A stretch of 64,000 bases of DNA from Lachnospiraceae bacterium (GTDB lineage: Bacteria; Bacillota; Clostridia; Lachnospirales; Lachnospiraceae): NCBI GenBank assembly GCA_022791575.1, contig JAAVZI010000039.1, positions 1 to 64,000 on the forward strand, in the 5' to 3' direction. Position 1 is the stretch's first letter. Every line of letters starts with the position of its first letter. This document shows, piece after piece, positions 1,438-36,439 of the stretch. Both the position numbers and the translations under genes were made by a program. The notes under the pieces are model-generated. The model was given only the letters and a program-made list of their open reading frames with translations, was not told where the DNA came from and ran no database searches.

Positions 1438-3252
1438 TTATTCAAACCGAACAATACAGCCAATCCCCTCCGCTTTGCCTCCAGGCTGAATGGTTTTATT
1501 ATAGTCCATAGCTGAAAAATGAACGACATTACCACTCGAACTGAAGTTTGCATTCCAGCCGGATACTACCTGAGCATTCGCAGGAAATGTCAGTGAACCG
1601 TTCCAACCCTCTTGAACGCCGCCAGCCGTATTATTTACCTTAATTTCATATTGAATATTAAACGCATTGCCTTCCTGCCAGCTGTTGACAACCACAGCTT
1701 CTGCTCCACCTCCAGGCTGCGGCGTAAACTGTTCCGGTGTTTTCTGAACCGGCGGCTGCCAGCTGCTGTTCGAAGAATCAGAACCCATGTTGTTCTGCTG
1801 ATTATTATTCTGATCTGCCGAAGGAACCTGCTGTGAAGAATGATCCGGCTCAACTGGATTCTGCTGCGTATTCTGTACGCTGCCCGAATTCGCTGGAACG
1901 CTGCCAATACTGCCCTGCAAAGTCTTCAAAAGCCACCTTCCGCTTTCTGTCAAGTCCCCCTCCGTAATCCCATTTGTTCGGGAACAGCCTGACTGAATTA
2001 AGGCGGAACTTTCCGCTTTATTAGAAAGGTTCCATGCGATATAACTAACACCATATTGATTCAGTGTCTGAATCCAAAGATCCCCCTGTTCTGTATTGAC
2101 GCCCCCATTTCCAGAAGCATCGCAGATTCCAAACTCGGATACAAAGACTGGAAGTCCGCTTCCTACAGCCTTTGCAAGCGTATTTCTCAGGGAATCCCTA
2201 TGCGTATTTGCGTAGAAATGCAGTGTGTACATAATATTGTTATATCCAGTAATCGGATCTGCACTGGCTTGATCTACCTCCTGGCTCCAGGTAGGCGTAC
2301 CAACAAGAATCACGCCATCAGGGTCCCGTGCACGAATCACCGGAATCACCTCATTCGCATAACGTTTGATCTCACTCCATGATACTCCGCCATTGGGTTC
2401 ATTGCAGATTTCATAGAGTACATGATCGTTATCCTTGTACAAATCCGCCATTTCTGCAAAGAACTCAATAGCCTCTGCTTTATGTGTATTGGGATTGCCA
2501 TCGGAGAGAATATGCCAATCAATGATGACATATAAATCCTGCTCTGTAGCATACTGCACTCCTTGTTTTACCAAATTTTTCAGCTGGCTTTTATTTCCTC
2601 CGCTGCAATAACCATTATACTCTGCCGTATACATCGCAAGACGAACTGTATTCGCTCCCCAGGAACGAAGCTCGCCAAACATTGCAGCATTTACATATTC
2701 TGGAAACCAGCCGAGGCCATGCGTGCTAATTCCTCGCAGCTGAATCGGAGTCCCATCTGCTGTACAGAGCTGATTGCCGACAACAGCCAGTTTACCGGCA
2801 TAATTTCCAGTATGAGCTCCGCCTGCGGAAGCGGAACCTGTTGCTCCGCCCGCTGCTGCCTGCCCCTGACTGCCTGGCTGATTGTTGGGACCTTTTGACT
2901 GATTCTGAGCGTCTGTAGAAGAAACTGGTAACTCGTTTTCCGCGCTTACCGCATTTTCTGTACCTTCTTCTGCTGTAACCGATTCCGAAGTGATTACTGC
3001 TACAGCAGCCTGACTGGCAGCTTTGCTGATATCTACGACAGATGGGGAAGCCTCCGGTTTTGTTTCATATTTTAAAACGCTCTTGGCCTCCTCTGCCTGC
3101 TTCCCTGCATTTTCCTTCCCATCTCGTATTCCTCTGGAATAACATAATACGCACAGCCCAATAATCATAAGCCCTAATACAAGTCCTGATACAGAACATA
3201 TTAAAATTCGACTCTTCGGCTTCTCCAGCCACTGTTTCCATTTTTCGTTCAT
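1438..3252 (-). CDS. Membrane-anchored GH5 endoglucanase with C-terminal CBM2-like domain
   Basis: Predicted cellulase hydrolysing beta-1,4-glucan at the cell surface. From the chosen ATG (604 aa): transmembrane anchor about 14-38; low-complexity Ala/Gly/Gln/Ser linker to about 150; glycoside hydrolase family 5 domain about 155-445, with acid/base Glu285 in NEP (EICNEPNGG) and nucleophile Glu373 (VFVSEFG); Pro/Gln/Asn-rich linker 455-515; and a module about 519-604 with the WNANF and TIQPGG pattern of family 2 cellulose-binding modules. The start at 3252 is preferred because GGAGG lies 11 nt upstream; an ATG 14 codons earlier has no such site. It has its own promoter at 3351-3379 and no dockerin, unlike the pectate lyases at 30-36 kb, so attachment is by the N-terminal anchor rather than a scaffold. 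Confidence 0.88.
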   Translation of the reverse strand: MNEKWKQWLEKPKSRILICSVSGLVLGLMIIGLCVLCYSRGIRDGKENAGKQAEEAKSVLKYETKPEASPSVVDISKAASQAAVAVITSESVTAEEGTENAVSAENELPVSSTDAQNQSKGPNNQPGSQGQAAAGGATGSASAGGAHTGNYAGKLAVVGNQLCTADGTPIQLRGISTHGLGWFPEYVNAAMFGELRSWGANTVRLAMYTAEYNGYCSGGNKSQLKNLVKQGVQYATEQDLYVIIDWHILSDGNPNTHKAEAIEFFAEMADLYKDNDHVLYEICNEPNGGVSWSEIKRYANEVIPVIRARDPDGVILVGTPTWSQEVDQASADPITGYNNIMYTLHFYANTHRDSLRNTLAKAVGSGLPVFVSEFGICDASGNGGVNTEQGDLWIQTLNQYGVSYIAWNLSNKAESSALIQSGCSRTNGITEGDLTESGRWLLKTLQGSIGSVPANSGSVQNTQQNPVEPDHSSQQVPSADQNNNQQNNMGSDSSNSSWQPPVQKTPEQFTPQPGGGAEAVVVNSWQEGNAFNIQYEIKVNNTAGGVQEGWNGSLTFPANAQVVSGWNANFSSSGNVVHFSAMDYNKTIQPGGKAEGIGCIVRFE

Positions 3253-3301
3253 CTTCTTTTTATCCTCCCATACTGACAGATCTTGCCCCATCATAACAAT
3301 G

Positions 3302-3322
3302 ATATAGAAGAAACTACTCCGT
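3302..3322 (-). repeat. 21-bp repeat, copy 1, in the 5' UTR of the cellulase gene
   Basis: The plus-strand sequence from ATATAGAAG to CTACTCCGT is identical over 21 bp to 10385-10405 in the rpmJ-rpsM spacer. Here it runs directly into GTCTAATC (3321-3328). The 12-mer CTCCGTCTAATC (3317-3328) recurs at 10538-10549. The unit therefore looks like an uninterrupted version of a sequence that is split in the ribosomal operon. Both copies face the same way, upstream of minus-strand genes. Confidence 0.75.
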
Positions 3323-3350
3323 CTAATCTTTAATCGCTTCCTGTATCCAT

Positions 3351-3379
3351 ATTATATTGTATTTTTAAACTGATTACAA
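3351..3379 (-). promoter_or_regulatory. Sigma-A type promoter for the cellulase gene
   Basis: On the minus strand TTGTAA (3374-3379) and TATAAT (3351-3356) are separated by exactly 17 bp. Transcription would start near 3344, giving a leader of about 90 nt that contains the 21-bp repeat before the ATG at 3252. Two of six -35 positions differ from TTGACA (four match); the -10 is perfect. Confidence 0.6.
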
Positions 3380-3410
3380 CCCTTTTTGCCTGCTGTTCAA
3401 CCGCGTACTC

Positions 3411-5249
3411 CTATCCCTGCTGATACCACCCTGCCTGCTCACTAAACATCCGATAATATACGCCGCCTTTATCCATCAGCTCTTCATGGCTTCCCTGTTC
3501 TACCATCCTGCCATTATCCAAGACCACAATCAGATCTGCCAACCTGGCAAATCCGATTCGGTGTGATATCAGAACCGATGTTCGATCCATAATGGTATCT
3601 TTTATATGATTAAACTGCTCCATCTCCGCAATCGGATCAAGTGCAGCAGCCGGTTCATCTAGGACTAAGATCTCCCGATTGCTCAGATGAGCACGGGATA
3701 CAGCCAGCCGCTGCCACTCTCCGCCAGAGAACATACTGCTCTTCTGCTGATACCAGCGTCCCATATAATGATCCAACCCATCGTCAAATCGTCTTACCAG
3801 CTTATCCGCTCCACCCTTTTGAGCTGCTTCCATCAGCTCCTGATCCTCATTTACCTTAGAAATGTCTCCAAAAGCAATATTTTCCCGAATCATTAATTCA
3901 AATCGTACATAGTCCTGAAAGGTAACGCCCATTTTTTCTACTAACTCCTCACGGCTCCACTGGGAATAACGTTTCCCCTCAAAAAACATCTGTCCTTCGG
4001 TCGGTGCATAAATTCCCAGCAAAAGCTTGACCAGTGTACTTTTCCCAGCTCCGTTAGCTCCGACTAATGCAACATTTTGTCCTTTTCGAATTTGAAGAGT
4101 CAGATGCTCAATGGCATTTTTATCATCATTATAATGAAAACTGACATCCTTTAGCTCAAATACAATCGGCTTATCACCGGATGTTACCGGTGTGGGACTA
4201 ATACGTGGATCCTCCTCTGCACTGGGAATGACCTTTGTATAATCCGTGCCAAAGAAATGCTTCATAAAATACAGCTTCCGGCAGCTCTCCATCAGACTTG
4301 CCGCGTATCCTCCAACTTGTGAACAGCTGCCGACAATCTGGTCGAACACCGATATAAACAGTGTCAAGCCTCCAAGCTGCAGTTCCCCTTTCCGTACCAG
4401 CAGCAATCCGATTAACAGCACGCCGAATTTTACAAATGTCATAAACAGATGATAAAACTGATACCCAAGCTGAATCTTATTGTTCGATTTACGCCATTTC
4501 TTTCGAAGCGGATGGTAGATTTCACTCCATTTCTTACTAAGCATCCCAAACAAACCCTGAACCCGGAATTCTTTCGCTGCCTCTGTATTGAACACCAGTT
4601 CAAATAGATTGTCGCACCTGCGCCATGTTCCCCGCTCCTCTTCCCAGAACCCAATCGCTTCCTGTACATTCTTTCCACTGGAAAGAAGCCCTGCCACCAG
4701 AAACACCAGAGCCGTGAGCAACAGCACATAGGACGTTCCGGCTGCCAGTATCAGTACACCAACAAGAGAAATCAGAATCAACGCGGTTGTGCCGACATCA
4801 CTTAAGAACCATCCCAACCTCCCTGTCTCTGACTTCACCGCCTCCATATCATCCGCCGTCTCCTTATCGTCAAAACAACGCAGCGGAATATCTTTTACCT
4901 TATTTCCCATCTTTTTCACTATGGCAACAGAATATGTAATATTGGCCATTAAATTCATCAATACAGGTATCACCTGATAGACGGCTTTGACAAACATGAC
5001 CACTGCCAGTACCACTACAAGCAGAATCACATACTCCTGCTTTTCTCCGGCTTCCACATTTTGCTGAATCTGATCCACAATTTGTTTCGTCAGCGCCAGA
5101 AAGAATGTCGGCAGCAGCGCACCTGTAAAATACAACAGCATACAAAGTATCATCCGCGCTTTATCTATCTCCCATGCCTGTTTCATTCCCCAACAAAATC
5201 CCTGCCATGTATGTTTGATATTATCTTTTTTCTTTTTCTCTTTCTTCAT
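3411..5249 (-). CDS. ABC transporter, fused permease/ATPase (half-exporter), partner 1
   Basis: 612-residue half-exporter: N-terminal membrane domain with about six hydrophobic segments (roughly residues 32-325) and C-terminal nucleotide-binding domain. Visible motifs: Walker A GANGAGKS (397-404), signature FSGGE (507-511, a variant of LSGGQ), Walker B ILVLDEP (about 527-533) with the catalytic Glu, and switch His563 (ISHR). It pumps an unidentified substrate out of the cytoplasm using ATP. It lies 45 bp after a similar half-exporter, so the two probably form a heterodimer from one transcript. ATG with AGGAGG 7 nt upstream. No peptidase C39 domain, precursor peptide or regulator is visible nearby, so the substrate (peptide, lipid or drug) cannot be named. 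Confidence 0.85.
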   Translation of the reverse strand: MKKEKKKKDNIKHTWQGFCWGMKQAWEIDKARMILCMLLYFTGALLPTFFLALTKQIVDQIQQNVEAGEKQEYVILLVVVLAVVMFVKAVYQVIPVLMNLMANITYSVAIVKKMGNKVKDIPLRCFDDKETADDMEAVKSETGRLGWFLSDVGTTALILISLVGVLILAAGTSYVLLLTALVFLVAGLLSSGKNVQEAIGFWEEERGTWRRCDNLFELVFNTEAAKEFRVQGLFGMLSKKWSEIYHPLRKKWRKSNNKIQLGYQFYHLFMTFVKFGVLLIGLLLVRKGELQLGGLTLFISVFDQIVGSCSQVGGYAASLMESCRKLYFMKHFFGTDYTKVIPSAEEDPRISPTPVTSGDKPIVFELKDVSFHYNDDKNAIEHLTLQIRKGQNVALVGANGAGKSTLVKLLLGIYAPTEGQMFFEGKRYSQWSREELVEKMGVTFQDYVRFELMIRENIAFGDISKVNEDQELMEAAQKGGADKLVRRFDDGLDHYMGRWYQQKSSMFSGGEWQRLAVSRAHLSNREILVLDEPAAALDPIAEMEQFNHIKDTIMDRTSVLISHRIGFARLADLIVVLDNGRMVEQGSHEELMDKGGVYYRMFSEQAGWYQQG

Positions 5250-23930: not shown

Positions 23931-24044
23931 CGACAAGCGGTGACTGTACACTCTCCCGTGTGTATCCTAAAATATTTCACACGTCGCTTTGGCATGTTCT
24001 TCATAAAATATGATAAAATGCCTGTATTGTACAGTGACTTGTCG
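23931..24044 (-). promoter_or_regulatory. Structured leader RNA of the S10 operon (candidate regulatory element)
   Basis: In transcript sense, CGACAAG-UC-ACUGUAC (24044 to 24029) can pair with GUACAGU-CACCG-CUUGUCG (23949 to 23931), giving two 7-bp helices around an asymmetric internal loop. Inside are P2 (GGCAU/AUGCC, plus strand 23991-23995/24018-24022, with inner UCAUA/UAUGA) and P3 (CGUGUG/CACACG, 23957-23962/23978-23983), forming a three-way junction. The element ends about 35 nt before the rpsJ start. The position suggests feedback control of ribosomal protein synthesis by an unknown ligand, possibly L4 or another operon product. The fold is drawn by eye. Confidence 0.55.
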
Positions 24045-24135
24045 CCAGTTTCCTAACTTGACATTCGCTCCACGGAAAAACCTGCCCAGCAGCAGCAACC
24101 TCACGCTTCGTCGCTATCATGTCACAGCAACGTCT

Positions 24136-24272: not shown

Positions 24273-24301
24273 TTGACTGTACAGAAAACAGTGCCTACAA
24301 T
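24273..24301 (+). promoter_or_regulatory. Sigma-A promoter of the acylation operon
   Basis: TTGACT (24273-24278), 17-bp spacer, TACAAT (24296-24301). Transcription would begin near 24308, about 30 nt before the SGNH-hydrolase ATG. It is divergent from the S10 promoter; the two -35 boxes are about 110 bp apart. Confidence 0.75.
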
Positions 24302-24339: not shown

Positions 24340-25158
24340 ATGAAAGAACATAGAAATTCCCAAAGATACCATAAACAAGATATAAAAAGACAAAAAAGAC
24401 TGATTATACGTTCTTCTGTTATTCTAATCGCAGCAGCCAGTCTGTTCATTACCTATAGATTCTGGAACAAAAGCAGTCATACTCAGCCAGAGGCCTCTCC
24501 TGAATTAGAAGAAGGCATAGCTATTTTAAAAAATATGGAAGCAAAAGAAGTGATGGCAGTCGAATCCGAAATTCAAGCCGTACATAATCTAACAGCACAG
24601 GCAGAAAAACAAACTTCCGCCGCCCCACAGGAACGGAATCTAAATGAGTGTTATGCTGCAAGCGTGATCATGGGCGATTCGATTGCCGAAGGAATTTCTT
24701 TATATGGATTCTTATCCCCATCCAATGTGATTGCCAAAAAAGGCGCTAGTCTGATTGAAATGGAAGAATTATTAACAACCGCACAGAATCTGAATCCTCA
24801 GAATGTGTTTTTATATGTTGGGTTTAATGATATCGGCCATTGTAAAGGCGATTTGAATAAGTTCCGAAGCAAATATGAGACCTTTATTCTCAAGCTAAAA
24901 GAGGCTCTTCCAGGAGCCAGAATCTATGCAAATGCCCTTTTCCCGGTATTAGATCACTTTATTACAGAATGCGGTTATTATTCTGAGATTAGCAACTGTA
25001 ATCAAATCGTACAGGAATTATGCACGCAGTACAACCTTACTTATATGGATTTTACCAGCCTTGCTCAAGCAGATTCCTATGCCTCAGACGGCTATCATTT
25101 TAAAAAATCATTTTATCCATCTTGGTTATATGGCATGGCGGAGGCGGCAGGATTATGA
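24340..25158 (+). CDS. Membrane-anchored SGNH/GDSL hydrolase
   Basis: 272 residues from ATG at 24340, with AAGGTGA 5 nt upstream; a GTG 3 codons earlier overlaps that site. Basic N-terminus, one membrane segment (about 21-41), a Glu/Ala-rich stalk, then an SGNH esterase/transferase domain (about 105-270). Block I is MGDSIAEG with Ser114, block III is GFNDIG with Asn163, and block V is SDGYHF with Asp250 and His253. The active site faces outside. First gene of a four-gene operon with an MBOAT acyltransferase and a DHHW protein, so it likely transfers or removes an O-acyl group on an exported polymer. Its stop overlaps the next start (ATGA). Confidence 0.85.
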   Translation: MKEHRNSQRYHKQDIKRQKRLIIRSSVILIAAASLFITYRFWNKSSHTQPEASPELEEGIAILKNMEAKEVMAVESEIQAVHNLTAQAEKQTSAAPQERNLNECYAASVIMGDSIAEGISLYGFLSPSNVIAKKGASLIEMEELLTTAQNLNPQNVFLYVGFNDIGHCKGDLNKFRSKYETFILKLKEALPGARIYANALFPVLDHFITECGYYSEISNCNQIVQELCTQYNLTYMDFTSLAQADSYASDGYHFKKSFYPSWLYGMAEAAGL

Positions 25159-25643
25159 GAAAAACAAGCCGTATGTCCATCTTATTAAGCAAATATATCC
25201 TTATTATGTGTATACTGCTGTTTATGTTCCTGGTGTATCGCCATGCCGGCAGCACTACAAAACGTTTTGAAGATACCAGAACAGACTTTTGCCGGGAACT
25301 GAATCTAAAATCTCTATCTGATAACGGGCCCCGGGGCTTAAAACGGTATTATGGATTAAATGCAGAAGACTATGCTGGTATCTTGCTCTATACTGCCAAA
25401 ACCAGCATGTCCGCCGAAGAAATTCTTCTAATACAAGTAAAGGATTCCACACAGCTTAATGAAATCGAACGTGCTATTTCTAAGCGACTGGAAAACCGTA
25501 AAAAAGATTTCGGCAATTATGCCCCGGAACAAACTGCTCTGCTGAAACAGGCACAGTTCACCATAAAAGGAACTTACATATTTATGGCGGTTTCTGAACA
25601 TGCAGAAGATTATAAAGCTGCATTTATCAAAAGCTTATTCTAA
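25155..25643 (+). CDS. DUF4358 membrane-anchored protein
   Basis: 162 residues from the ATG overlapping the previous stop (ATGA, 25155-25158). One N-terminal hydrophobic segment (about 9-24, LLSKYILIMCILLFMFLV), then an extracytoplasmic domain with YYGLNAEDYAGILLY, MSAEEILLIQVKD, and a helix near KRLENRKKDFGNYAP. This pattern (phase of a Tyr-containing N-part, then AEEIL and a helical stretch) matches DUF4358 lipoprotein-like proteins known from Firmicutes. No function is established. Its overlap with the SGNH gene and its place before the MBOAT gene imply a part in the same surface acylation process, perhaps as an adaptor. Confidence 0.7.
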   Translation: MRKTSRMSILLSKYILIMCILLFMFLVYRHAGSTTKRFEDTRTDFCRELNLKSLSDNGPRGLKRYYGLNAEDYAGILLYTAKTSMSAEEILLIQVKDSTQLNEIERAISKRLENRKKDFGNYAPEQTALLKQAQFTIKGTYIFMAVSEHAEDYKAAFIKSLF

Positions 25644-25662
25644 TGTACCAGAGGAGAAGATT

Positions 25663-27069
25663 ATGTTATTTTCCAGTATCACTTTTTTATTTACTTTTTT
25701 ACCGCTTACTATGGTACTTTATTATATTTGTCCGCAGAACGGCAAAAATGCTGTTCTGTTAACTGCCAGCCTAATTTTTTATGCATGGGGAGAACCAGTT
25801 TATGTGGTACTAATGATCCTGGTCATTCTTTTTAATTATATATGCGGAAAAGATATTTACTTGAAATTACGCAATAAAAAAGCGGCAAAACGCAGCCTGA
25901 TTTCTGCAGTGGCCATAAATCTTTTGATTCTTGGTTTCTTTAAATATTATGGATTTTTTGTAGATCTGTGTGATGCATTTTTACCTATTCGAATTCCCAA
26001 AAGAGAACTAAGCCTGCCGATCGGCATTTCCTTTTATGTCTTTCAGGCTGTGTCTTATCTAATTGATGTCTACCGTGGGGAAGTAAAAGCACAGAAGCAT
26101 CTTCTGCATTTCGCCTTATATATCAGTATGTTTCCGCAATTAATTGCCGGTCCCATCGTCCGTTATATAGATATTGAGGTTCAGCTGAATAAACGTACGG
26201 TTTCACTCGCAAAGTTCGGTTCTGGAGTCCGCTTCTTTATTATCGGTCTTGGCAAAAAGGTAATTCTGGCTAATGGCATAGGAGCGATTTTTGATTCCAT
26301 TTACTCAGGATTTGCAGCTGGGGGAAAACTTTCTGTCCTTACAGCATGGCTGGGAGCAGCTGCCTATACCCTGCAGATTTATTTTGATTTCAGTGGTTAC
26401 TCGGATATGGCAATGGGACTGGGCAGAATGTTTGGTTTTCAGTTTCCTAAAAACTTTGATTACCCTTATACAGCCAAAAGTATTACTGACTTCTGGCGCC
26501 GCTGGCATATCTCACTTAGCACATGGTTCCGGGAATATGTCTACATACCGCTTGGCGGAAACCGCGTAAATACTGGAAGACATATCTTTAATCTGATGGC
26601 AGTGTGGTCTCTGACCGGATTCTGGCATGGTGCAGCCTGGAATTTTCTATTCTGGGGATTTTATTATGGTGTTTTGCTTATTATGGAAAAGTATATCTGG
26701 GGAGAGCGCCTAAAACAGCTTCCACTGGCAATACAGCATCTGTATACATTGTTCATCATTGTGATTGGCTGGGTATTTTTCTTCAGCTCTAGCTTAAAAG
26801 AAGCTCTTGCTTACCTTGGCATGCTGTTCGGCCTCGGTGCTGCGGGCCTGTCCGATTCTGCTGTACTGTTTCTGCTCTGTTCTAACTGGCTACTACTTTT
26901 TGCGGCACTGGCTGCCTGTGTGCCGCTGCCGTTTCGCATACTTATGCAGGTTAAAAATGCCTTTTTTCAGAAATACTGTGCAAATATCATTTATCTGCTG
27001 CTCTTTCTGATTTCCATAGCCAGTCTGGTCAGCGGTACATTTAACCCATTTTTATACTTTAGATTTTAA
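25663..27069 (+). CDS. MBOAT-family membrane O-acyltransferase (AlgI/DltB-like)
   Basis: 468 residues from ATG at 25663 (GAGGAGA upstream). Polytopic: about 10-12 hydrophobic segments. MBOAT signatures: FYAWGEP near the N-terminus, SYLIDVYRG, IYFDFSGYSDMAMG, FWRRWHISLSTWFREYVYIPLGGNR-type motif around residues 276-300, and TGFWHGAAWNF with the catalytic-type His around 320. Such proteins hand an acyl group across the membrane to a surface sugar polymer, working with an SGNH partner. Here that partner is either the upstream GDSL protein or the downstream DHHW protein. No dltA/dltC carrier genes are nearby, so D-alanylation is unlikely; O-acetylation is the better guess. Confidence 0.9.
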   Translation: MLFSSITFLFTFLPLTMVLYYICPQNGKNAVLLTASLIFYAWGEPVYVVLMILVILFNYICGKDIYLKLRNKKAAKRSLISAVAINLLILGFFKYYGFFVDLCDAFLPIRIPKRELSLPIGISFYVFQAVSYLIDVYRGEVKAQKHLLHFALYISMFPQLIAGPIVRYIDIEVQLNKRTVSLAKFGSGVRFFIIGLGKKVILANGIGAIFDSIYSGFAAGGKLSVLTAWLGAAAYTLQIYFDFSGYSDMAMGLGRMFGFQFPKNFDYPYTAKSITDFWRRWHISLSTWFREYVYIPLGGNRVNTGRHIFNLMAVWSLTGFWHGAAWNFLFWGFYYGVLLIMEKYIWGERLKQLPLAIQHLYTLFIIVIGWVFFFSSSLKEALAYLGMLFGLGAAGLSDSAVLFLLCSNWLLLFAALAACVPLPFRILMQVKNAFFQKYCANIIYLLLFLISIASLVSGTFNPFLYFRF

Positions 27070-27122
27070 AGCAAGATTGACATAAATCATCTGTCAAATA
27101 TGTCCCAGAAGGAGATACTTTC

Positions 27123-28286
27123 ATGAGAAATAGAAAGAATAGCCGAAAGCTTCACCGTCAAGCAGATTGTATATTAGGAATCTTATTTCTGGTCTGCTTT
27201 TCATTGTTAACCATTATTAATATATTGAAGAAGGATCAAAGCATTTCTGAAGAAGAAAACCGTGCATTGGCAGAAAAGCCTACGATTACTGCTGACAGCC
27301 TTTTAAATGGTATTTATATGGAACAGTATGAGGATTATGTCTCGGATCAATTTGCCGGACGTAATTTCTGGCGCAGATTATACTTAGCCTGGAAGAAAGC
27401 TGGAGGAAGCCGCAAGGAAAACGGCGTATTTCTGGGAAAGGACGGCCAGCTTATGGAGGACATTACCGCAGCAGACAAAGAGGCTCTACAGAAAACGATC
27501 GACAGCATTAATGCATTTGCCCTTCGTCATTCCGATATCCGAACCTATATGCTGCTGATTCCGGATTCGGCTGCAATTCTCACCAGCCAGCTTCCGCCGC
27601 ATGCTTCTATCATAAATCAGCCCGAACAATTTTCCTTGATAAAAAATAAAATGGAACCAGCCATTGTCTGGATTGATGCCGTATCCGCATTGCAGAAGCA
27701 TAAAACCGAGAAAATTTACTATAAAACTGATCATCACTGGACCAGCCTTGGCGCATATTATTCATTTATAAATGCAGCAAAAAGTCTTGGAATTGACGGA
27801 GATTTTACTCAAGCCTATGACATTTATCCAATTACAGAGAACTTTAATGGTGTATTATCAAGCACTAGCGGCTTCTGCCAGGATGAACAGGAAACCATCT
27901 ACGTTTACCTGCCAAAAGAGAATTCGGTCTCGGTTGTGGCTCATTATGTGGAAGAACAGAACAAACGTACGTCACTGTATGATACCAGTAAATTAAAAAC
28001 AAAAGATCAATACGCATTATTTCTTGGAGGAAACTTTCCGCTGATTGATATCAAAACCTCTGCGGCAGAAGATAGGAAACTACTACTGGTAAAGGATTCC
28101 TTTGCTAACAGCTTTATTCCCTTCCTTGTGCCTTTTTATCAAGAAATTGTTGTTGTTGATCCTAGATATTATGCTGGTACTTTGGAAGAGGTTATGAATT
28201 TGTATGAAATTACAGATATGCTGTATTTATACAGCGGAAATACATTTCTCAGCGATCATAATATCAGTGGTGTATTAGAAAACTAA
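27123..28286 (+). CDS. DHHW-family (AlgX/AlgJ-like) protein
   Basis: 387 residues. N-terminal membrane anchor (about 16-35), then an extracytoplasmic domain with EEENRALAEKP, the EQYEDYVSDQFAGRNFW pattern, and YKTDHHWTSLGAYYSF around residues 200-215, the DHHW signature. Near the C-terminus LLVKDSFANSF (about 322-332) looks like the SGNH Ser block, so Asp/His of DHHW plus this Ser could form an acyltransferase triad. The family accompanies MBOAT acyltransferases in polysaccharide O-acetylation. ATG after AAGGAG. Last gene of the operon; no clear terminator before the next promoter at 28324. Confidence 0.85.
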   Translation: MRNRKNSRKLHRQADCILGILFLVCFSLLTIINILKKDQSISEEENRALAEKPTITADSLLNGIYMEQYEDYVSDQFAGRNFWRRLYLAWKKAGGSRKENGVFLGKDGQLMEDITAADKEALQKTIDSINAFALRHSDIRTYMLLIPDSAAILTSQLPPHASIINQPEQFSLIKNKMEPAIVWIDAVSALQKHKTEKIYYKTDHHWTSLGAYYSFINAAKSLGIDGDFTQAYDIYPITENFNGVLSSTSGFCQDEQETIYVYLPKENSVSVVAHYVEEQNKRTSLYDTSKLKTKDQYALFLGGNFPLIDIKTSAAEDRKLLLVKDSFANSFIPFLVPFYQEIVVVDPRYYAGTLEEVMNLYEITDMLYLYSGNTFLSDHNISGVLEN

Positions 28287-28353: not shown

Positions 28354-28360
28354 ATTCACA

Positions 28361-28495
28361 GATATAAGGGAGTAGTCGCTATGGTTGTAAGTCATCCATA
28401 GGATTAAGTCAACATACGTGAGTACTGGCTTGTAATAACAAGTTACAGCTCTGGTTTGATCTTTTTGACCTTTCAAAAATGACAAGACTTATATC
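28361..28495 (+). promoter_or_regulatory. yybP-ykoY-type (Mn2+-sensing) riboswitch
   Basis: P1 is GATATAAG (28361-28368) with CTTATATC (28488-28495). The 5' strand is followed by GGAGTAG and the 3' strand preceded by ACAAGA, the two conserved loops (GGGGAGUAG and GCAAGACC) of the yybP-ykoY class. Between them lie a CTATGG/CCATAG hairpin and AAGTCAACATACGTGAGTAC, then TGGCTT, matching the conserved GUCAACA ... CUGGC helix with a tetraloop. The P1 3' strand overlaps the terminator stem, so ligand binding would favour read-through (an ON switch). Class assignment is by eye against the known consensus and the L. lactis example recalled from the literature. Confidence 0.72.
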
Positions 28496-28530
28496 ACCTT
28501 AATAGGTGGTATGGGTCTTTTTCTTTTTTT
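28484..28530 (+). terminator. Riboswitch-controlled intrinsic terminator
   Basis: Stem AAGAC ... TATCACCT (28484-28499) pairs with AGGTGGTA ... GTCTT (28504-28519), followed by TTTTCTTTTTTT. It competes with P1 for 28488-28495, the textbook arrangement for transcriptional control. Confidence 0.85.
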
Positions 28531-28644
28531 CAAATACCTCCTGTTCAGGCGGGTGAATCAAATCCATGGTTTAAAAAATACGAATGCTCAAGCATTCTTA
28601 ATATAAATACATCCAAACCATATATGTGATAAGGAGGTAGTTTT

Positions 28645-29787
28645 ATGGATTTTTTATTGTCTGGTATTCAGGGAATTATGGAGCATCCTGAATACATCAT
28701 TATGTATCTGATCGGCGCCTTGCTGATCTATCTGGCAATTGTTAAGGACTTAGAACCTGCACTTTTGCTGCCTATGGGATTCGGAGCTATTCTGGTGAAC
28801 CTTCCGGCCTCCGGCGTTCTGACCCAGCAGCTGACGGAACAGATCTCTTCAACCGGAATTATTGAATGGCTGTTTGAGGTAGGAATTGAAGCCTCTGAAG
28901 CAATGCCGCTTTTACTGTTTATAGGAATTGGTGCTATGATCGACTTTGGACCTCTTCTATCCAACCCGAGAATGTTTTTATTCGGAGCTGCTGCCCAGTT
29001 CGGTATCTTCGCAGCCGTATTCGTGGCAGGACTTATGGGATTCGAATTAAACGATGCCGCTTCTATTGGTATTATCGGAGCTGCCGATGGCCCTACCGCC
29101 ATTTTAGTTGCCAATGTATTGAATTCCAAGTATATGGGGGCAATCGCCGTTGTTGCCTATTCTTATATGGCATTGGTTCCTATCGTACAGCCCGCTGTTA
29201 TTAAGACGCTTACCACCAAAAAAGAACGTTGTATGCATATGGAATATAAGCAAAATACCGTTTCTAAGCGAGCTAAAATTATTTTCCCAATTGTTGTAAC
29301 CTTTGTTGCAGGCCTGGTTGCCCCAACCTCTGTTTCTCTGGTAGGTTTTCTAATGTTCGGCAATCTATTAAGAGAATGCGGCGTATTAGGTAATCTCTCG
29401 GATACTGCACAGAATGTCCTCGCTAACCTTGTGACTCTTCTGCTTGGAATCACAATCGCCTTTAGTATGAAGGCAGAGGCTTTTGTGAATACACAGACTT
29501 TAATGATTCTTGTGATTGGTCTGGCAGCCTTTGTATTTGATACTGCAGCAGGTGTTATCTTCGCCAAGATTTTAAACCTGTTCTCTAAAAACAAAGTAAA
29601 TCCCATGATTGGAGCAGCTGGTATTTCTGCCTTCCCTATGTCCGCCCGTGTCGTACAGAAGCTTGCTCTGAAAGAAGACCCCACAAATATCATCATTATG
29701 CAGGCAACAGGCACCAACGTATCTGGACAGATTGCCTCTGTCGTTGCCGGCGGCGTAATCTTGAACCTTGTTACATCTATGTTTTAA
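28645..29787 (+). CDS. Sodium ion-translocating decarboxylase, beta subunit (OadB family)
   Basis: 380 residues, very hydrophobic, about 9-11 membrane segments. Family signatures: GIGAMIDFGPLL, IIGAADGPTAILVAN (the ion-binding region Asp), NLVTLLLGITIAFSM and MQATGTNVSGQIASVVAGG at the C-terminus. OadB/MmdB/GcdB couples decarboxylation of a biotin-bound carboxyl group to Na+ export. The substrate (oxaloacetate, methylmalonyl-CoA or glutaconyl-CoA) is set by the alpha subunit, which is not in this window. Followed 27 bp later by a tiny OadG-like gene. The promoter carries a manganese-type riboswitch, an unexpected regulator for this family. ATG after AAGGAGG. Confidence 0.88.
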   Translation: MDFLLSGIQGIMEHPEYIIMYLIGALLIYLAIVKDLEPALLLPMGFGAILVNLPASGVLTQQLTEQISSTGIIEWLFEVGIEASEAMPLLLFIGIGAMIDFGPLLSNPRMFLFGAAAQFGIFAAVFVAGLMGFELNDAASIGIIGAADGPTAILVANVLNSKYMGAIAVVAYSYMALVPIVQPAVIKTLTTKKERCMHMEYKQNTVSKRAKIIFPIVVTFVAGLVAPTSVSLVGFLMFGNLLRECGVLGNLSDTAQNVLANLVTLLLGITIAFSMKAEAFVNTQTLMILVIGLAAFVFDTAAGVIFAKILNLFSKNKVNPMIGAAGISAFPMSARVVQKLALKEDPTNIIIMQATGTNVSGQIASVVAGGVILNLVTSMF

Positions 29788-30823: not shown

Positions 30824-33496
30824 CTATTGTAAATTTTCGTCGAAATCTGTCGTTATTTTTAATACGTTTCTTAGTATCATTTGTGCATCTTTAAGCGTTA
30901 CATTGCCGTCTTTACTTACATCTGCCGCATTTTTCTGAAACGGCGCTGGGAATTCTGTAATATGCAATGCAACTTTTAATGTCATGGCTACATCCTCCAG
31001 TTCGATCCGCTCATCTCCATTTACATCGCCAGGTGCATATACAATCTCTGGAATCGTATGATCTTCCTCTTTGGTTTTGTCAGGCGCATCCTCCTGTTTT
31101 AAATAGGCTCGGTCAAGATCGATTCTGTCCGCTAGAATACACTCTGCTCTAACTGGTATATAGTAAAATTCCAGTCCTTTTACCTGTACCCCGTTGGGTG
31201 TCCCAATCGTTCCCTGGCCAATCTTCTCTGCTCCAAGTCCCACTCCGCCGACGGTCAACGTGGTTCGATCATCAGAAATGAATTCCAGCAGGCTTCGGCT
31301 GGTCTGCCGCAGAGGCGCCGGCCTGTTCCGATAATTCCGATTATGCCCAAACCCCAGATTAAAAGATTCTCCAGCAGCACGCACATCAAACTTTTCTCCA
31401 AAATAATTTAGATATTCTGAACTTAATTCCAGTCCATCCATATAGTATTGAACCCAGTCATTTTGAATGACTGCCACCATATAATGCCATTGATCCCGTT
31501 CATCCAGGCCCGGCGGAACCATGCCCGGCATAAAATCAGTTGTTTTATCTCCCCAGAACATATAATCACTGCCATTCGTCCAGTAGAAATACTGATTAAA
31601 AATATGCATGGCAGTTGTATCTCCATAAGTTTCTAGGTAGGGATTGCGCTGGATTCCTGTCCAATTATCCTGACGGAACCCCATGGAACCGGACGCATAC
31701 AGGCTAAACGACCCGCTGATATCCGCTTCTCTGATCTTACTGTTTACACCGCCCTTCTCAAAATACCTCGCACTGTAATTAGAATACATGCCTTCTCCGA
31801 TGTAATTCAAATACTTCCAATTCAGTGGATTCGCAGGATCGGTTCCCTGCCGATATGCATAATAAGCTCCGCCATCATAGGAGGTTCTATAACAGCCCTC
31901 AGCCGGATAGTTGGGATTATAACAGACATTTTTCCCATATCCTTCTAATACATCAAAGCTTCGGCCTCTGGCATCTATGTAAGTAACACGTGCTCCCATA
32001 GAATAGGAAGAATCCATCGAACTATATGCTTTACAAAGTTTGTACTTGGCCAAGTCACTTCGTTCTATCTGACGATCATTTTCCAGATTAAAGTTTAATA
32101 CTGCTGCATCATGGATACTATAATCCTGCGGCATTTTCACCCAGTAAGCAATTGTTGCCCCTTTCTCCCAATAGGGAACCTGTCCTGCGTTCTGTTCCTC
32201 ACTGTAATCCTTGCCTGCAAATGGGTTCTCAATCTCATAATAGGCATTGGAACCATCTGAATTCTGTCCATGATAAGTATAAGTATCGTCTTCTTCACGA
32301 TAAGTAATCGGATTGTCATTTTTCTTGCTGGCCGGTGCTGAAGAAGGTAGCGGAGCTGGAACGATTTTCACATGTTCTTTTTCCACTGCCTTTACATAAG
32401 TTCCCTTCGCTGGTGCCTGCACCGAAGAAGCACACGGCCCCACATAGCTTTGTACAATCCGCGGCACATCTGCGGCTAGATCTAAGTAATAATCATAATT
32501 GGTCGTTTCATATGGAACGACGCGCAGGCTATTCTTTTGTCCTGCTGCCCTGCTGCCTTTCGTTCGATTATACATATTTCCGCGGGCAGTGATAGAGGCT
32601 GGATAATCATTATCTGGATAATTAAATATATGCGGATTATTTACATTCTCAAAGTAATTATTTTCCACCAATAGCGCGGCATAACAATCTGCTCCGATAC
32701 AATAATTGTTATTTTGGCTGGAATAATAATTGTTATATAAATGTACCTGACCATACATGACTCTGGGCATCCGCTCCTTAATCCAATCGGCAAACCAGTT
32801 GTGGTGAAATGTTATATGCAATTTGCCCATATCGGTATCTTCATGATCCCCCGCGCCGGAACTAACTAGTGCATTAAGCCGGTGTGGATGCCTATATTGA
32901 GCACGCTCTGTATACCAAAACTTACACCAGGACACCGTTATATAATCAGAACCCTGCGTAATATCCATATTGCCGTCAGGAGCGTTCCATATGCTTAAGT
33001 GGTTAAACCACAGATGATGGCTGTTCTGCACCTGTACCCCGTCATCAGGGCCTGTACTGGGCCAGGTTCCCTGTATATTTAGATTGTGGACAATGACATT
33101 GCTGGCGTTATGAATACGGATACCGCCGTAGATCGTCGCATTTTCATCCATTCCAACAATCGTCTTATTGCTTCCAATCATAATCCCAGGACCGATGGTC
33201 TCAATTTTCCCCGATACAACTAAAACACGAGGAATATCATCCCCTGCCAGCCTAGTTAGCTCTTCAAATGTGGTTACCAGCTGCGGGCTGGCACTGCCGC
33301 CTCCGGTTACACCTTCCAGCCCTTCTGCATGGACCGCTGCCCAACCGTAAAGTTCATTCAGTTTCAGCGGACTGCTGATATTTAATGCTGCCCGTTCTTC
33401 TGCACGTACCTCCAGAATTCTACTGTCAACTGTCAACGGAACAAAAACAGTCAAAAGCAGTACCAGAGTTACCAGCACAGAAATCATTTTTTTCAT
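30824..33496 (-). CDS. Secreted pectate lyase (PL1) with LamG-like and dockerin domains, copy 2
   Basis: 890 residues from ATG at 33496 (GGAGG 8 nt upstream); signal peptide about 1-30. Domains: PL1 pectate lyase (about 45-370; TIVGMDENATIYGGIRI, DGNMDITQGSDYITVSWCKF, and KERMPRVMYG with the catalytic Arg); a concanavalin-like/LamG region (about 400-790; QWHYMVAVIQNDWVQYYMDG); and a type I dockerin at the end with two Ca2+ loops (DVNGDERIELED and DVSKDGNVTLKD). It cleaves polygalacturonate by beta-elimination outside the cell. The dockerin implies docking to a cohesin-bearing scaffold or surface protein not seen here. Second gene of a tandem pair; a 55-bp gap and the same strand suggest one transcript. 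Confidence 0.9.
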   Translation of the reverse strand: MKKMISVLVTLVLLLTVFVPLTVDSRILEVRAEERAALNISSPLKLNELYGWAAVHAEGLEGVTGGGSASPQLVTTFEELTRLAGDDIPRVLVVSGKIETIGPGIMIGSNKTIVGMDENATIYGGIRIHNASNVIVHNLNIQGTWPSTGPDDGVQVQNSHHLWFNHLSIWNAPDGNMDITQGSDYITVSWCKFWYTERAQYRHPHRLNALVSSGAGDHEDTDMGKLHITFHHNWFADWIKERMPRVMYGQVHLYNNYYSSQNNNYCIGADCYAALLVENNYFENVNNPHIFNYPDNDYPASITARGNMYNRTKGSRAAGQKNSLRVVPYETTNYDYYLDLAADVPRIVQSYVGPCASSVQAPAKGTYVKAVEKEHVKIVPAPLPSSAPASKKNDNPITYREEDDTYTYHGQNSDGSNAYYEIENPFAGKDYSEEQNAGQVPYWEKGATIAYWVKMPQDYSIHDAAVLNFNLENDRQIERSDLAKYKLCKAYSSMDSSYSMGARVTYIDARGRSFDVLEGYGKNVCYNPNYPAEGCYRTSYDGGAYYAYRQGTDPANPLNWKYLNYIGEGMYSNYSARYFEKGGVNSKIREADISGSFSLYASGSMGFRQDNWTGIQRNPYLETYGDTTAMHIFNQYFYWTNGSDYMFWGDKTTDFMPGMVPPGLDERDQWHYMVAVIQNDWVQYYMDGLELSSEYLNYFGEKFDVRAAGESFNLGFGHNRNYRNRPAPLRQTSRSLLEFISDDRTTLTVGGVGLGAEKIGQGTIGTPNGVQVKGLEFYYIPVRAECILADRIDLDRAYLKQEDAPDKTKEEDHTIPEIVYAPGDVNGDERIELEDVAMTLKVALHITEFPAPFQKNAADVSKDGNVTLKDAQMILRNVLKITTDFDENLQ

Positions 33497-33551
33497 GATT
33501 GATTCCTCCATTTTATCAAGAAACATTCAGAAGCAGTAGCTCTGATTTTCC

Positions 33552-36374
33552 TTATCCCGGAAATGTCTTTATAATTTTTAATACATATCTCAATAAAATC
33601 TGTGCGTCCATCAGGGTGATTCGGTCATCTCCATCTACATCTGCTGCCTGCTTCTGTTGATCGTCTTCCAGATTAATGATATGAAGAGCTGCTTTTAATG
33701 TCCACTGAACATCTGCCAAGTTAATCTGTCCATTCCCATCTGCATCTCCTAAAATATACGCTTCTTCTGTTGGACTCGGCTTATCTGAAACTTCCGGTGC
33801 TTCTGTATCCCCTGGCTGACCGGTATCTCCTGGGGCTTCTGTATTTCCAGGCTCACTGCTGCCTCCCGGAAGATCGGTTCCTCCTGGTTCCTCGGAACTT
33901 CCAGGTTTCTCCGTCGGATTAGGTTCTGTTGTTTTATCCGGCGCTTCTTCCTGCTGCACATCCAAACTTAAATCAATCCGATCATTTAAAATACATTTTG
34001 CAGAAACTGGGAAATAGTAGAATTCCAGTCCTTTTACCTGGGCGCCATCTGGTGTTCCAATACTATTTTGCGTCAGTAATTGGGCTGATACACCCATTCC
34101 TCCAACGGTTAATACAGTATCCTCATCTGCAATAAAATCTAACAGATTCATACTAGTCTGACAAATCGTATTCGGTGAATCTTTCAAATAAGCTTTATTA
34201 CAGCCATAACCAAGATTAAAGGATTCTCCAGCGGGTCTGGCCTTTGAATCATTCAAGGCACGTGTAAAATAATTCAGATAATCAGATGTAATCTCCTGAC
34301 CATCCATATAAAATTGCACCCAATCATTCTGAATCACTGCTACTACATAATGCCATTGATTCTTTTCCGCCATTACCGGCGTCATCTTATTAGAATTACT
34401 CAGCGTATAAATCCCGCCATTTCCAAAATAGAAAAACTGATTAAATATATGCGCTGATATTTTATTGCCATAATTATCCAAGTTTGGATTGCGCTGCAGA
34501 CCTTCCCAGTTATCCTGTCTATATCCCATACTGCCTGAAGCGTAGAGGCTGAAAGAACCGCTGATATCTGCCTCCTGAATCATACTGCCTTCTCCGCCCT
34601 CTTCCTCAAACCGCCGTCCATATTTTTGAAACATTCCTTGTCCGATATAGTTCAGATAAGTCCAGTTTGAAGTATCTGCCGAATCGGTTCCTTTCTCATA
34701 TGCATAATATGCGCCCCCTGTATGATCTGTATAATAATATCCTTCTTCTGGATATCCCGGATTATAACAGACATTTTTTCCATATTCTTGAAGTACCGTA
34801 AATTCCCTGCCTCTAGCATCCACATAGGTTTTCTTCTTTCCCAAGGAATACGATGGATCCTGAGAACTGTAAGCCTGACAAAGATTATATTTCGCTGCAT
34901 CACTTCGTTCCATCTGTCGGTCATTTTCCAAATTGAAATTCAACACAGCAATATCTTTAGCAGAAGAAGGAACCTTAACCCAATAGGCGATGGTTGCTCC
35001 CTTTTTCCATACCGGTTTTCCATTTTTATAGGAAGGAACCTCACTAAAATCTTTTGTTGAAAATGGATTCTCAATCTCATAGTAAGCATTGGACCCATCC
35101 TTATTCTGCCCATGATAGCTATAGGTATCACTGTTCTTATCATAGGTAACCGCATTATCATTCACCTTTTTGACTGGTGTACTGGTTGGCAGCGGCGGCG
35201 GAGATGGTCTAGGCTCTTCCACAGCCGCTTTCACCAGCGTCCCCTTTGTCGGAACAGTTGTATCAGCAGAATAAGTCCCAGCATAGCTCTGAACAATTTC
35301 CGGCACATCTTTCGCCTCATTTAGATAGTAATCATAATTTGTTGTCTCATAGAGGGGAACCTTTAAATCACTCTTTTTTTGTCCCTGTGCCCGCGTACCA
35401 GTGGTATTGTCATATTCATTACCACGTGCTACAATACCTGCTGGCTGCGGATTTCCCGGATAGGAAAATATATGCGGATCTCTAACATCTTTAAAATAGT
35501 TGTTTTCCACCAGCAAAGAGGCATAACAATCTGCACCGATACAATAAAGATTGCCCTTGCTTGTATAATAATTATTATAAGCATGTACACGCCCATACAT
35601 AACTCTAGGCATACGTTCATTTAGATGGTCTGCAAACCAGTTGTGATGATAGGTAACATGCAGTCTGCCCATGTCTGTATCCTCATGATCACCTGCGCCA
35701 GAACTGATCAGATTGCTCAACCGATGAGTATGCTTCTTTAACACTCCATCTACCATTACTCCGTTAATGGCATCATCTGTATACCAGAACTTACACCAGG
35801 ATACGGTGATATAATCAGAGCCCAGTGTAATATCCATATTCCCATCCGTAGAATTCCATATATTCAGATGATTAAACCATAAATGATGACTATTCTTCAC
35901 TTCTACACAATCGTCCGGCCCGCTGTACGGCCATGTACCCTCAATATTCAAATTGCTGACAATAATATTATTGGCATTATGTATACGAATCCCGCCATAA
36001 ATTGTGGCATTTTCATCCTTACCAACTATCGTTTTGTTATTTCCTACCAGAACGCCATATCCTTCACATTCAATTCTTCCATCAATAACAAGCGTTCTTG
36101 GTAGATTGTCACCTGCGAGTCTGGTAAACTCTTCCAATGAACTTACCACTTGCGGCTGAGCAGCCCCGCCGCCTGTCACTCCTTCCAATCCCTCTGCATG
36201 AACGGAGGCCCATCCTGTTAATTCTTCCATGTTCAAAAGATTATCTACAATCAAATTCTGTGCTTCACCAGCATAAGCTGCATCTACCTCTGTTCCAACT
36301 CCCTGTAATGTCATCGGAATACTGACTAGCAGCAGTGCTACACTTAGCAGCCAGGCCAATCCTCTTTTCTTCAT
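33552..36374 (-). CDS. Secreted pectate lyase (PL1) with LamG-like and dockerin domains, copy 1
   Basis: 940 residues from ATG at 36374 (AGGAGG 8 nt upstream); signal peptide about 1-36. PL1 domain about 45-385 with GGIRIHNANNIIV, SSGAGDHEDTDMG and NERMPRVMYGRVHAYNN (catalytic Arg). LamG-like part about 425-800. It adds a Pro/Glu/Gly/Thr-rich linker (about 815-870) that copy 2 lacks, then a dockerin with DADGNGQINLAD and DVDGDDRITLMD loops. The two enzymes share order and long identical blocks, so they arose by duplication. A short insertion after WYTDDA (about 201-214) differs from copy 2. Promoter at 36440-36468. Confidence 0.9.
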   Translation of the reverse strand: MKKRGLAWLLSVALLLVSIPMTLQGVGTEVDAAYAGEAQNLIVDNLLNMEELTGWASVHAEGLEGVTGGGAAQPQVVSSLEEFTRLAGDNLPRTLVIDGRIECEGYGVLVGNNKTIVGKDENATIYGGIRIHNANNIIVSNLNIEGTWPYSGPDDCVEVKNSHHLWFNHLNIWNSTDGNMDITLGSDYITVSWCKFWYTDDAINGVMVDGVLKKHTHRLSNLISSGAGDHEDTDMGRLHVTYHHNWFADHLNERMPRVMYGRVHAYNNYYTSKGNLYCIGADCYASLLVENNYFKDVRDPHIFSYPGNPQPAGIVARGNEYDNTTGTRAQGQKKSDLKVPLYETTNYDYYLNEAKDVPEIVQSYAGTYSADTTVPTKGTLVKAAVEEPRPSPPPLPTSTPVKKVNDNAVTYDKNSDTYSYHGQNKDGSNAYYEIENPFSTKDFSEVPSYKNGKPVWKKGATIAYWVKVPSSAKDIAVLNFNLENDRQMERSDAAKYNLCQAYSSQDPSYSLGKKKTYVDARGREFTVLQEYGKNVCYNPGYPEEGYYYTDHTGGAYYAYEKGTDSADTSNWTYLNYIGQGMFQKYGRRFEEEGGEGSMIQEADISGSFSLYASGSMGYRQDNWEGLQRNPNLDNYGNKISAHIFNQFFYFGNGGIYTLSNSNKMTPVMAEKNQWHYVVAVIQNDWVQFYMDGQEITSDYLNYFTRALNDSKARPAGESFNLGYGCNKAYLKDSPNTICQTSMNLLDFIADEDTVLTVGGMGVSAQLLTQNSIGTPDGAQVKGLEFYYFPVSAKCILNDRIDLSLDVQQEEAPDKTTEPNPTEKPGSSEEPGGTDLPGGSSEPGNTEAPGDTGQPGDTEAPEVSDKPSPTEEAYILGDADGNGQINLADVQWTLKAALHIINLEDDQQKQAADVDGDDRITLMDAQILLRYVLKIIKTFPG

Positions 36375-36439
36375 AAGCGTTTCCTCCTGTTTCATCCATT
36401 TACCTCAAATTATTTAATCAGTCTCTTATTTTATGATTA

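Follow-up and report, generated by a model that had tools for sequence, protein, structure and literature searches.

What do four closely packed genes accomplish together when a membrane-bound O-acyltransferase (MBOAT) and its DHHW partner are joined by a second SGNH protein and by a protein of the orphan domain family DUF4358? The question is raised by positions 24340-28286 of contig JAAVZI010000039.1 from a Lachnospiraceae bacterium (assembly GCA_022791575.1), which lie within the 64,000-nucleotide stretch (positions 1 to 64,000 of the contig) that was analysed as a whole and is referred to here as the window. We propose, with a probability of about 0.62, that the four gene products act as one membrane-attached module that modifies an envelope polymer outside the cytoplasm with O-acyl (most likely O-acetyl) groups. 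In plain terms, a membrane machine made of four parts probably decorates a polymer of the cell surface with small acyl groups. The core chemistry, MBOAT-SGNH acylation of the envelope, is already known; what is new is that DUF4358 is a regular partner, that an esterase-like SGNH protein is coupled to the system and that lineages with altered active sites exist.

Reading of the open reading frames (ORFs) together with Pfam searches confirmed four genes on the forward strand in the order SGNH, DUF4358, MBOAT, DHHW, each with a match above the curated cut-off:

24340..25158, forward strand: SGNH/GDSL protein, 272 amino acids (Pfam PF13472, GDSL_2, 4.1e-12)
25155..25643, forward strand: DUF4358 protein, 162 amino acids, the proposed adaptor (PF14270, 1.7e-28; 99.3 bits against a cut-off of 25)
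25663..27069, forward strand: MBOAT O-acyltransferase, 468 amino acids (PF03062, 6.6e-29; 101.7 bits against a cut-off of 27; translation from 25660)
26626..26628, forward strand: codon of the MBOAT catalytic His322 (His in 37 of 42 aligned MBOATs, Tyr in five)
27049..27066, forward strand: C-terminal FLYFRF, an FXYXXF acyl-shuttle motif in the sequence, with Tyr465 as the predicted acyl carrier
27123..28286, forward strand: DHHW/AlgX-like SGNH acyltransferase, 387 amino acids, with an N-terminal membrane anchor (PF14286, 1.1e-27; PF16822, ALGX, 7.3e-11)

The TGA stop of the SGNH gene (25156-25158) overlaps the ATG of the DUF4358 gene (25155-25157) to give ATGA, and the remaining gaps are 19 nucleotides between DUF4358 and MBOAT and 53 between MBOAT and DHHW. 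We place the MBOAT start at the ATG at 25663 rather than adopting the longer mechanical ORF from 25600. A preliminary description of this DNA had spoken of a tight four-gene operon with an ATGA overlap, and every ORF, their order and the overlap were confirmed. The strongest hydrophobic segment lies near the N terminus in each of the SGNH, DUF4358 and DHHW proteins; in the AlphaFold 2 models of the SGNH and DUF4358 proteins this N-terminal helix precedes the domain.

The arrangement recurs well beyond this genome. Named genomes were scanned with a single short peptide pattern built on KRYYGLN, which favours close cassette-type relatives. Of the 63 matches, 43 were confirmed as loci by DUF4358 alignment; these span three families and come from Lachnospiraceae, Intestinibacter/Clostridium and Acetobacterium. 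The order SGNH-DUF4358-MBOAT-DHHW is found in 42 of the 43, the contig of the remaining locus ending inside DUF4358, and the SGNH stop overlaps the DUF4358 ATG in 29 of 42 (18 as ATGA, 11 as TAATG). Since order and overlap are maintained to this extent, the four-gene layout is not due to chance. The MBOAT of locus L066 and the SGNH of L070 had been missed by the ORF filter and were found by tblastn; in the residue counts given here, L066 is absent from the MBOAT rows, L070 is absent from and L106 present in the SGNH rows, and L081 contributes its DHHW protein as two separate rows.

The MBOAT and DHHW proteins carry all the signatures of a known MBOAT-SGNH acyl relay. An FXYXXF motif ends 36 of 41 locus MBOATs, and its shuttle Tyr is present in 41 of 42 alignment rows. 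The DHHW protein (97.7 bits against a profile cut-off of 25) displays DHHW at 203-206, Ser326 and DPRY at 346-349 and carries the Ser-His-Asp signature; across the locus alignment the Ser is kept in 43 of 44 rows and the Arg in 40 of 44. Its closest solved relative is PatB1 of Bacillus cereus (5v8d, 3.9e-22), described in the accessible text of its report as a proven O-acetyltransferase of the secondary cell wall polysaccharide (PMC9487903). In PatA, according to the sections of that study available to us, the Tyr of FXYXXF takes an acetyl group and passes it to the SGNH partner PatB, a mechanism that its authors extend to other MBOAT-SGNH systems (PMC12148441). The acyl carrier is therefore most likely the C-terminal Tyr of the MBOAT itself, by the mechanism published for PatA. 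The earlier view of the locus as a surface acylation system, with a membrane step performed by MBOAT and transfer by the DHHW protein, is thus borne out by the motifs, by their conservation and by the relationship to PatB1, insofar as homology can predict function. Among solved structures the relatives of the MBOAT are DltB proteins (6bug, 2.6e-27; 8jem, 2.9e-27). Assignment as DltB, acting in D-alanyl transfer, was considered and set aside: the equivalog TIGR04091 scores 153.5 bits against a cut-off of 375. The genome has no match to DltD; it carries two MBOAT genes, both with a DHHW gene as neighbour. DltD was found in 9 of the 120 genomes of our family sample, too rare for a powerful exclusion test, and we do not claim that the cassette has replaced Dlt in this lineage.

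The suggested test of whether DUF4358 truly belongs with this machinery, co-occurrence across genomes, was passed. Within the family sample, DUF4358 occurs in 58 genomes, MBOAT in 111 and DHHW in 80; MBOAT presence alone is too common to be informative, but DHHW is present in 56 of the 58 genomes with DUF4358 as against 24 of the 62 without it (Fisher test, 2.6e-12). A phylum sample of 299 genomes gave 27 with DUF4358 and 50 with DHHW, both being present in 26 of the 27 (1.6e-22). Gene neighbourhoods tell the same story. Fifty-nine of the 67 DUF4358 genes in the family have an SGNH, MBOAT or DHHW gene as neighbour or fusion partner: 28 have SGNH upstream and MBOAT downstream, 15 MBOAT only, 10 SGNH only, three are fused in frame to DHHW and three lie beside DHHW, leaving eight with no partner. 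SGNH is thus directly upstream of 38 and MBOAT directly downstream of 43, where SGNH was recognised at E<=1e-3 by a profile built from the cassette proteins, which may miss distant members. Outside the family draw, 24 of 26 DUF4358 genes from the phylum sample adjoin a partner (MBOAT only, 9; SGNH only, 8; both, 6; DHHW, 1; none, 2), these 26 being drawn from 32 matches other than our own, of which three had no locus and three fell below the cut-off. Because of the co-occurrence counts, the adjacency and the fusions, we regard DUF4358 as a companion of the acyl machinery that is tied to both the SGNH protein and the MBOAT-DHHW pair, belonging to the former about as much as to the latter. The SGNH protein is not always needed, since 15 of the 67 DUF4358 genes have an MBOAT and no recognised SGNH upstream. 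Elsewhere, MBOAT and DHHW are themselves fused in one frame of 843 amino acids (L225, G370:C190:2500-9500, at 2243-4771 on the reverse strand), and this fusion adjoins what we take, from its sequence, to be a glycosyltransferase-like gene.

What the additional SGNH protein contributes is less readily settled. It consists of an N-terminal membrane helix, a helical linker and an extracytoplasmic SGNH domain (~105-272), and it has the fold and sequence blocks of an SGNH/GDSL hydrolase, with block I at GDS112-114, block II at G135, block III at N163 (GFND) and block V at D250/H253. The AlphaFold 2 model has a mean predicted local distance difference test score (pLDDT) of 87.3, rising above 93 in the SGNH domain, and Pfam finds no carbohydrate-binding module in the protein. 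The triad is well kept (Ser in 41, Asp in 43 and His in 42 of 43 rows). The preliminary description had envisaged a relay involving two outer Ser enzymes and a membrane carrier, and such a relay operates by proposal in alginate acetylation, where AlgIJFX is presented as an acetyl relay in the accessible part of PMC10641220. Transposed to this operon, the acyl group would pass from MBOAT to the SGNH protein as an AlgJ-like intermediate, then to the DHHW protein as an AlgX-like transferase and on to the polymer, with DUF4358 as an AlgF-like bridge. The inventory is equal to that of AlgI/J/F/X (one MBOAT, two SGNH-clan proteins and one small extracytoplasmic protein), and the SGNH and DUF4358 genes are translationally coupled. 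However, block II, which we assigned from spacing, is Gly in 42 of 43 rows; as stated in the available portion of PMC12148441, this position is Ser or Asn in OatA and PatB and Gly in most hydrolases. By that distinction the SGNH protein, which keeps G135, does not group with OatA/PatB-like acyltransferases. Moreover, its closest folds are carbohydrate O-acetylesterases: the nearest is the sialate O-acetylesterase 7pzg (Z 19.0, 165 residues aligned, root-mean-square deviation 2.5), compared with Z 16.4, 144 residues and 2.4 for the OatA domain. The 15 loci with MBOAT and no recognised SGNH upstream also argue against this route. We consider the two-serine relay possible but doubtful. The hydrolase-type Gly and the nearest fold moderately favour an O-acetylesterase, an editor rather than a second transferase, and because of them writing and editing fits somewhat better than two successive serines. 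The MBOAT/DHHW part of the envisaged relay is supported, and the part that made the SGNH protein its second Ser is the less favoured reading.

DUF4358 itself offers few catalytic clues. The protein comprises an N-terminal transmembrane helix and an extracytoplasmic alpha/beta domain (pLDDT 89.9; predicted template modelling score 0.76). Its fold has no Foldseek match in the PDB at E<=1e-3 (best VIA Z 5.2) and its sequence no relative there (best E 0.53); AlgF is absent from these match lists. In a wide alignment of 60 of the 67 family sequences, seven being omitted (three fusions and four others), the positions conserved at 60% or more are Tyr66, Gly67, Glu89, position 94 (mostly Lys), Tyr122, Pro124, Gly139 and Tyr141, with no conserved set of Ser/His/Asp or Cys residues. 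One might view the tyrosines of YYGL as acceptors of the acyl group, which would make DUF4358 a second carrier resembling DltX. Tyr65 and Tyr66 are indeed invariant in the 42-row cassette alignment, and a small membrane-anchored protein in this place recalls DltX. Nevertheless, Tyr66 is Tyr in only 63% of the 60 wider sequences, the FXYXXF motif is already present on the MBOAT, and DUF4358 ends in KSLF rather than FXYXXF; a carrier of this kind is highly improbable.

We propose instead that DUF4358 serves as an adaptor without enzymatic activity and plays in Gram-positives the part of AlgF, to which it is not homologous. In the accessible text of PMC10641220, AlgF is required for alginate acetylation, binds AlgJ and AlgX, and has no esterase activity. 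The proposal draws on the gene order, the fusions, the lack of catalytic residues and this analogy: DUF4358 occupies the slot of AlgF with an unrelated fold. Membership in the AlgF family was considered and rejected, as DUF4358 is predicted to form a single alpha/beta domain and not two beta-sandwiches.

A mechanism can be outlined for the module as we favour it, its first two steps from homology. With probably acetyl-CoA as the cytoplasmic donor, MBOAT would load an acyl group onto Tyr465 of its FLYFRF tail. The acyl-Tyr tail would then swing to the anchored DHHW protein, whose Ser326 would accept the group and transfer it to a hydroxyl of a sugar or polyol. The same polymer would be the target of the anchored SGNH protein, which is more likely a trimming or editing O-acetylesterase than a second transferase. 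DUF4358 would hold the SGNH protein and the MBOAT-DHHW pair together, as the unrelated AlgF does in AlgI-AlgJ-AlgF-AlgX. As a whole, we moderately favour a writer and editor resembling PatA-PatB-Ape1, supplemented by an AlgF-like adaptor.

Not all cassettes retain the residues that such a mechanism demands. The MBOAT His is replaced by Tyr in L067, L071, L072, L077 and L082, such cassettes being of the Muricomes and Faecalicatena contorta type; the shuttle motif is altered in L067, L071, L072 and L082 and lost in L075 and L077, where it reads FLYYAV or is absent. The DHHW Arg is changed in L075, L077 and L082, the SGNH protein of L082 has exchanged Ser for Ala and His for Cys, and those of L071 and L072 carry Gly for Asn163. 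These active-site losses are real in the sequence records, and the well-supported branches of the MBOAT tree imply that they arose through three separate changes. The genes concerned are nevertheless intact, the invariant residues of DUF4358 are kept, and the altered cassettes of the three lineages are apparently under purifying selection. For the close pair L071 and L072, which share their loss, the ratio of nonsynonymous to synonymous substitution (dN/dS) is 0.07-0.26 at dS 0.08-0.23; L067/L071 and L075/L077 give 0.06-0.19 at dS 1.06-3.12, near saturation. In five of these six genomes no other copy of DUF4358 was found, whereas the sixth (G123, with L075) has one more, within a cassette that is intact. 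It could be argued from the repeated losses, the intact genes, the low ratios and the retained DUF4358 residues that in some lineages the cassette forms a non-catalytic complex, a sensor, scaffold or polymer binder, and that adaptor and binding functions are its older core. Yet the cassette of the window and most of its relatives are intact, and every genome with an altered cassette has one or more additional MBOATs in which the His or the shuttle motif is intact. Furthermore, L071 and L072 are close, the other two pairs are near saturation, and the decay may be recent. We therefore hold the non-catalytic alternative to be decidedly unlikely.

The substrate cannot be read from genomic context, because no polymer synthase genes were recognised beside the cassette in its relatives. 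Recurrent neighbours among the 43 loci are, as we take them to be from sequence reading without a search, a pseudouridine synthase, a DNA ligase and ClpX-like and HtpG-like proteins, and in Acetobacterium presumably glycerol kinase-like and glycerol-3-phosphate oxidase-like proteins. These housekeeping-like surroundings, in which no glycosyltransferases were recognised by the same reading, would suit an acceptor that is a glycolipid or a protein presented by DUF4358. Against this, the DHHW protein of known activity acts on the secondary cell wall polysaccharide, in the passages available of PMC9487903, and MBOAT-SGNH systems are tied to polymers in those of PMC12148441; a non-polymer acceptor appears unlikely.

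Several observations weigh against the acylation module that we propose. Six of 42 cassettes have an incomplete MBOAT relay signature, a state that a simple catalytic role leaves unexplained. Among the 67 DUF4358 genes of the family, eight have no adjacent partner and 15 have MBOAT with no recognised SGNH upstream. DUF4358 is also found fused to or beside a transglutaminase-like domain, outside acylation (L047:5392-6579 and L058:5671-7452). The choice between esterase and transferase hangs on one residue and on a ranking of folds in which OatA is close (16.4 against 19.0). The adaptor role is an analogy, DUF4358 not being homologous to AlgF by fold. Lastly, no polymer synthase was recognised among the sequence-read neighbours of the 43 loci.

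DUF4358 may have relatives in a wider setting. This genome's other MBOAT-DHHW pair (L048, G000:C58:44000-59175) has no Pfam DUF4358 and is directly preceded by a lipoprotein. By our own reading, a lipoprotein of this kind lies ahead of 10 among 20 further MBOAT-DHHW pairs without DUF4358, chosen from the DHHW match list and not at random, and the other 10 show none directly upstream. Alignment of these lipoproteins with DUF4358 by hhalign gave 92.7% with the bridging sequence L165 and 76.8% without it; 'B' type lipoproteins alone gave 25.5%, comparison with the narrow cassette alignment A3 gave about 1%, and 20 column-shuffled controls reached at most 0.14%. This is moderate, suggestive evidence that the upstream lipoproteins are remote relatives of DUF4358, of which the L048 lipoprotein may be one. 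At L158 and L159 the lipoprotein upstream of MBOAT-DHHW has a PRWNIC-type domain in tandem duplicate, and the long N-terminal extension of the L087 DHHW protein yielded only DHHW and a sub-cut-off match. We may speculate, tentatively and at well below even odds, that DUF4358 and the lipoproteins belong to a single superfamily and supply the MBOAT-DHHW acyltransferases of Bacillota with an obligatory third component. This would fill the place of AlgF in Gram-positives and would also be found with anchored SGNH esterases. SGNH-DUF4358 would then be a movable editing unit coupled to a writer, and the at least three lineages that lost writer catalysis and kept the complex would point to a second, non-acylating function.

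The operon is flanked by a divergent S10 ribosomal operon on one side and by a Na+-decarboxylase beta-subunit gene (28645) on the other. Two further features lie upstream of it:

24039-24119, reverse strand: S10-Clostridia leader (Rfam)
24273..24301, forward strand: weak candidate promoter (TTGACT-17-TACAAT) ahead of the operon

We call this promoter weak because the promoter-like matches in the region (17) do not exceed the expectation from shuffles (14.1, standard deviation 3.8). A defence role for the cassette was considered and dropped, PADLOC giving no match. Downstream, a divergent yybP-ykoY (Mn2+) riboswitch-like leader (28355-28537, forward strand) precedes the Na+-decarboxylase beta-subunit gene (28645-29787). 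Its score of 26.0 bits (E 1.7e-5, 321 bases searched) falls short of the gathering score, which is 45; the leader retains GGGAGUAG and UCAACAUAC and includes a terminator-like hairpin at 28484-28519 (fold z -5.8). Further on, two paralogous pectate lyases of 900 and 947 amino acids (30824-33526 and 33552-36395, reverse strand) each bear a terminal type I dockerin and resemble cellulosome-style parts; the second has a sub-cut-off laminin-G-like match.

Our findings give an orphan domain, present in 58 of 120 family and 27 of 299 phylum genomes, a concrete and testable role. They enlarge the parts list of Gram-positive MBOAT-SGNH envelope acylation, including that of a gut-type Lachnospiraceae relative without a DltD match. 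If our proposal is true, a conserved esterase-like SGNH protein beside a transferase would tie the writing of an envelope modification genetically to its editing, and the altered-site cassettes would serve as natural mutants for probing the role of the complex beyond catalysis. In the literature searched, which lay outside subscription papers and preprints, DUF4358 appears in a single paper, as an entry in a proteomics table on Turicibacter and bile, with log2 differences of 1.0, 1.2 and 0.9 with bile, taurochenodeoxycholic acid (TCDCA) and taurocholic acid (TCA) in the portion available; a text search of the same scope found no mention of DUF4358 where DHHW is treated with MBOAT.

How, then, does the cassette compare with systems already described? 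With DltB-DltX-DltD it has in common the MBOAT fold, its best PDB match, and the acyl-Tyr shuttle; in the cassette, however, the shuttle is fused to the MBOAT, the DltB cut-off is missed and the genome has no DltD match. CcsH and CcsI of the clostridial cellulose operon are likewise an MBOAT-DHHW pair in Clostridia, as the accessible text of PMC7710045 describes without mentioning DUF4358, but are tied to the cellulose synthase CcsA, whereas no such synthase was recognised beside the cassette in its relatives. PatA1/PatB1 of the Bacillus cereus group, acting on the secondary cell wall polysaccharide, is again an MBOAT-DHHW pair; the accounts available describe neither DUF4358 nor an extra SGNH protein there, and the cassette has both. 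AlgI-AlgJ-AlgF-AlgX, and with it WssH/I/F/G, matches the cassette in its one MBOAT, two SGNH-clan proteins and one small non-enzymatic extracytoplasmic protein. AlgF, however, is built of two beta-sandwiches while DUF4358 is alpha/beta, membrane-anchored and unrelated in fold, and the cassette is Gram-positive and without a synthase operon. Finally, PatA-PatB-Ape1 and the cassette both have an MBOAT writer with an FXYXXF tail, an SGNH-clan transferase and a separate SGNH esterase (in the cassette a predicted one), the cassette differing in having DHHW instead of PatB/DUF459, a membrane-anchored SGNH protein and the addition of DUF4358.

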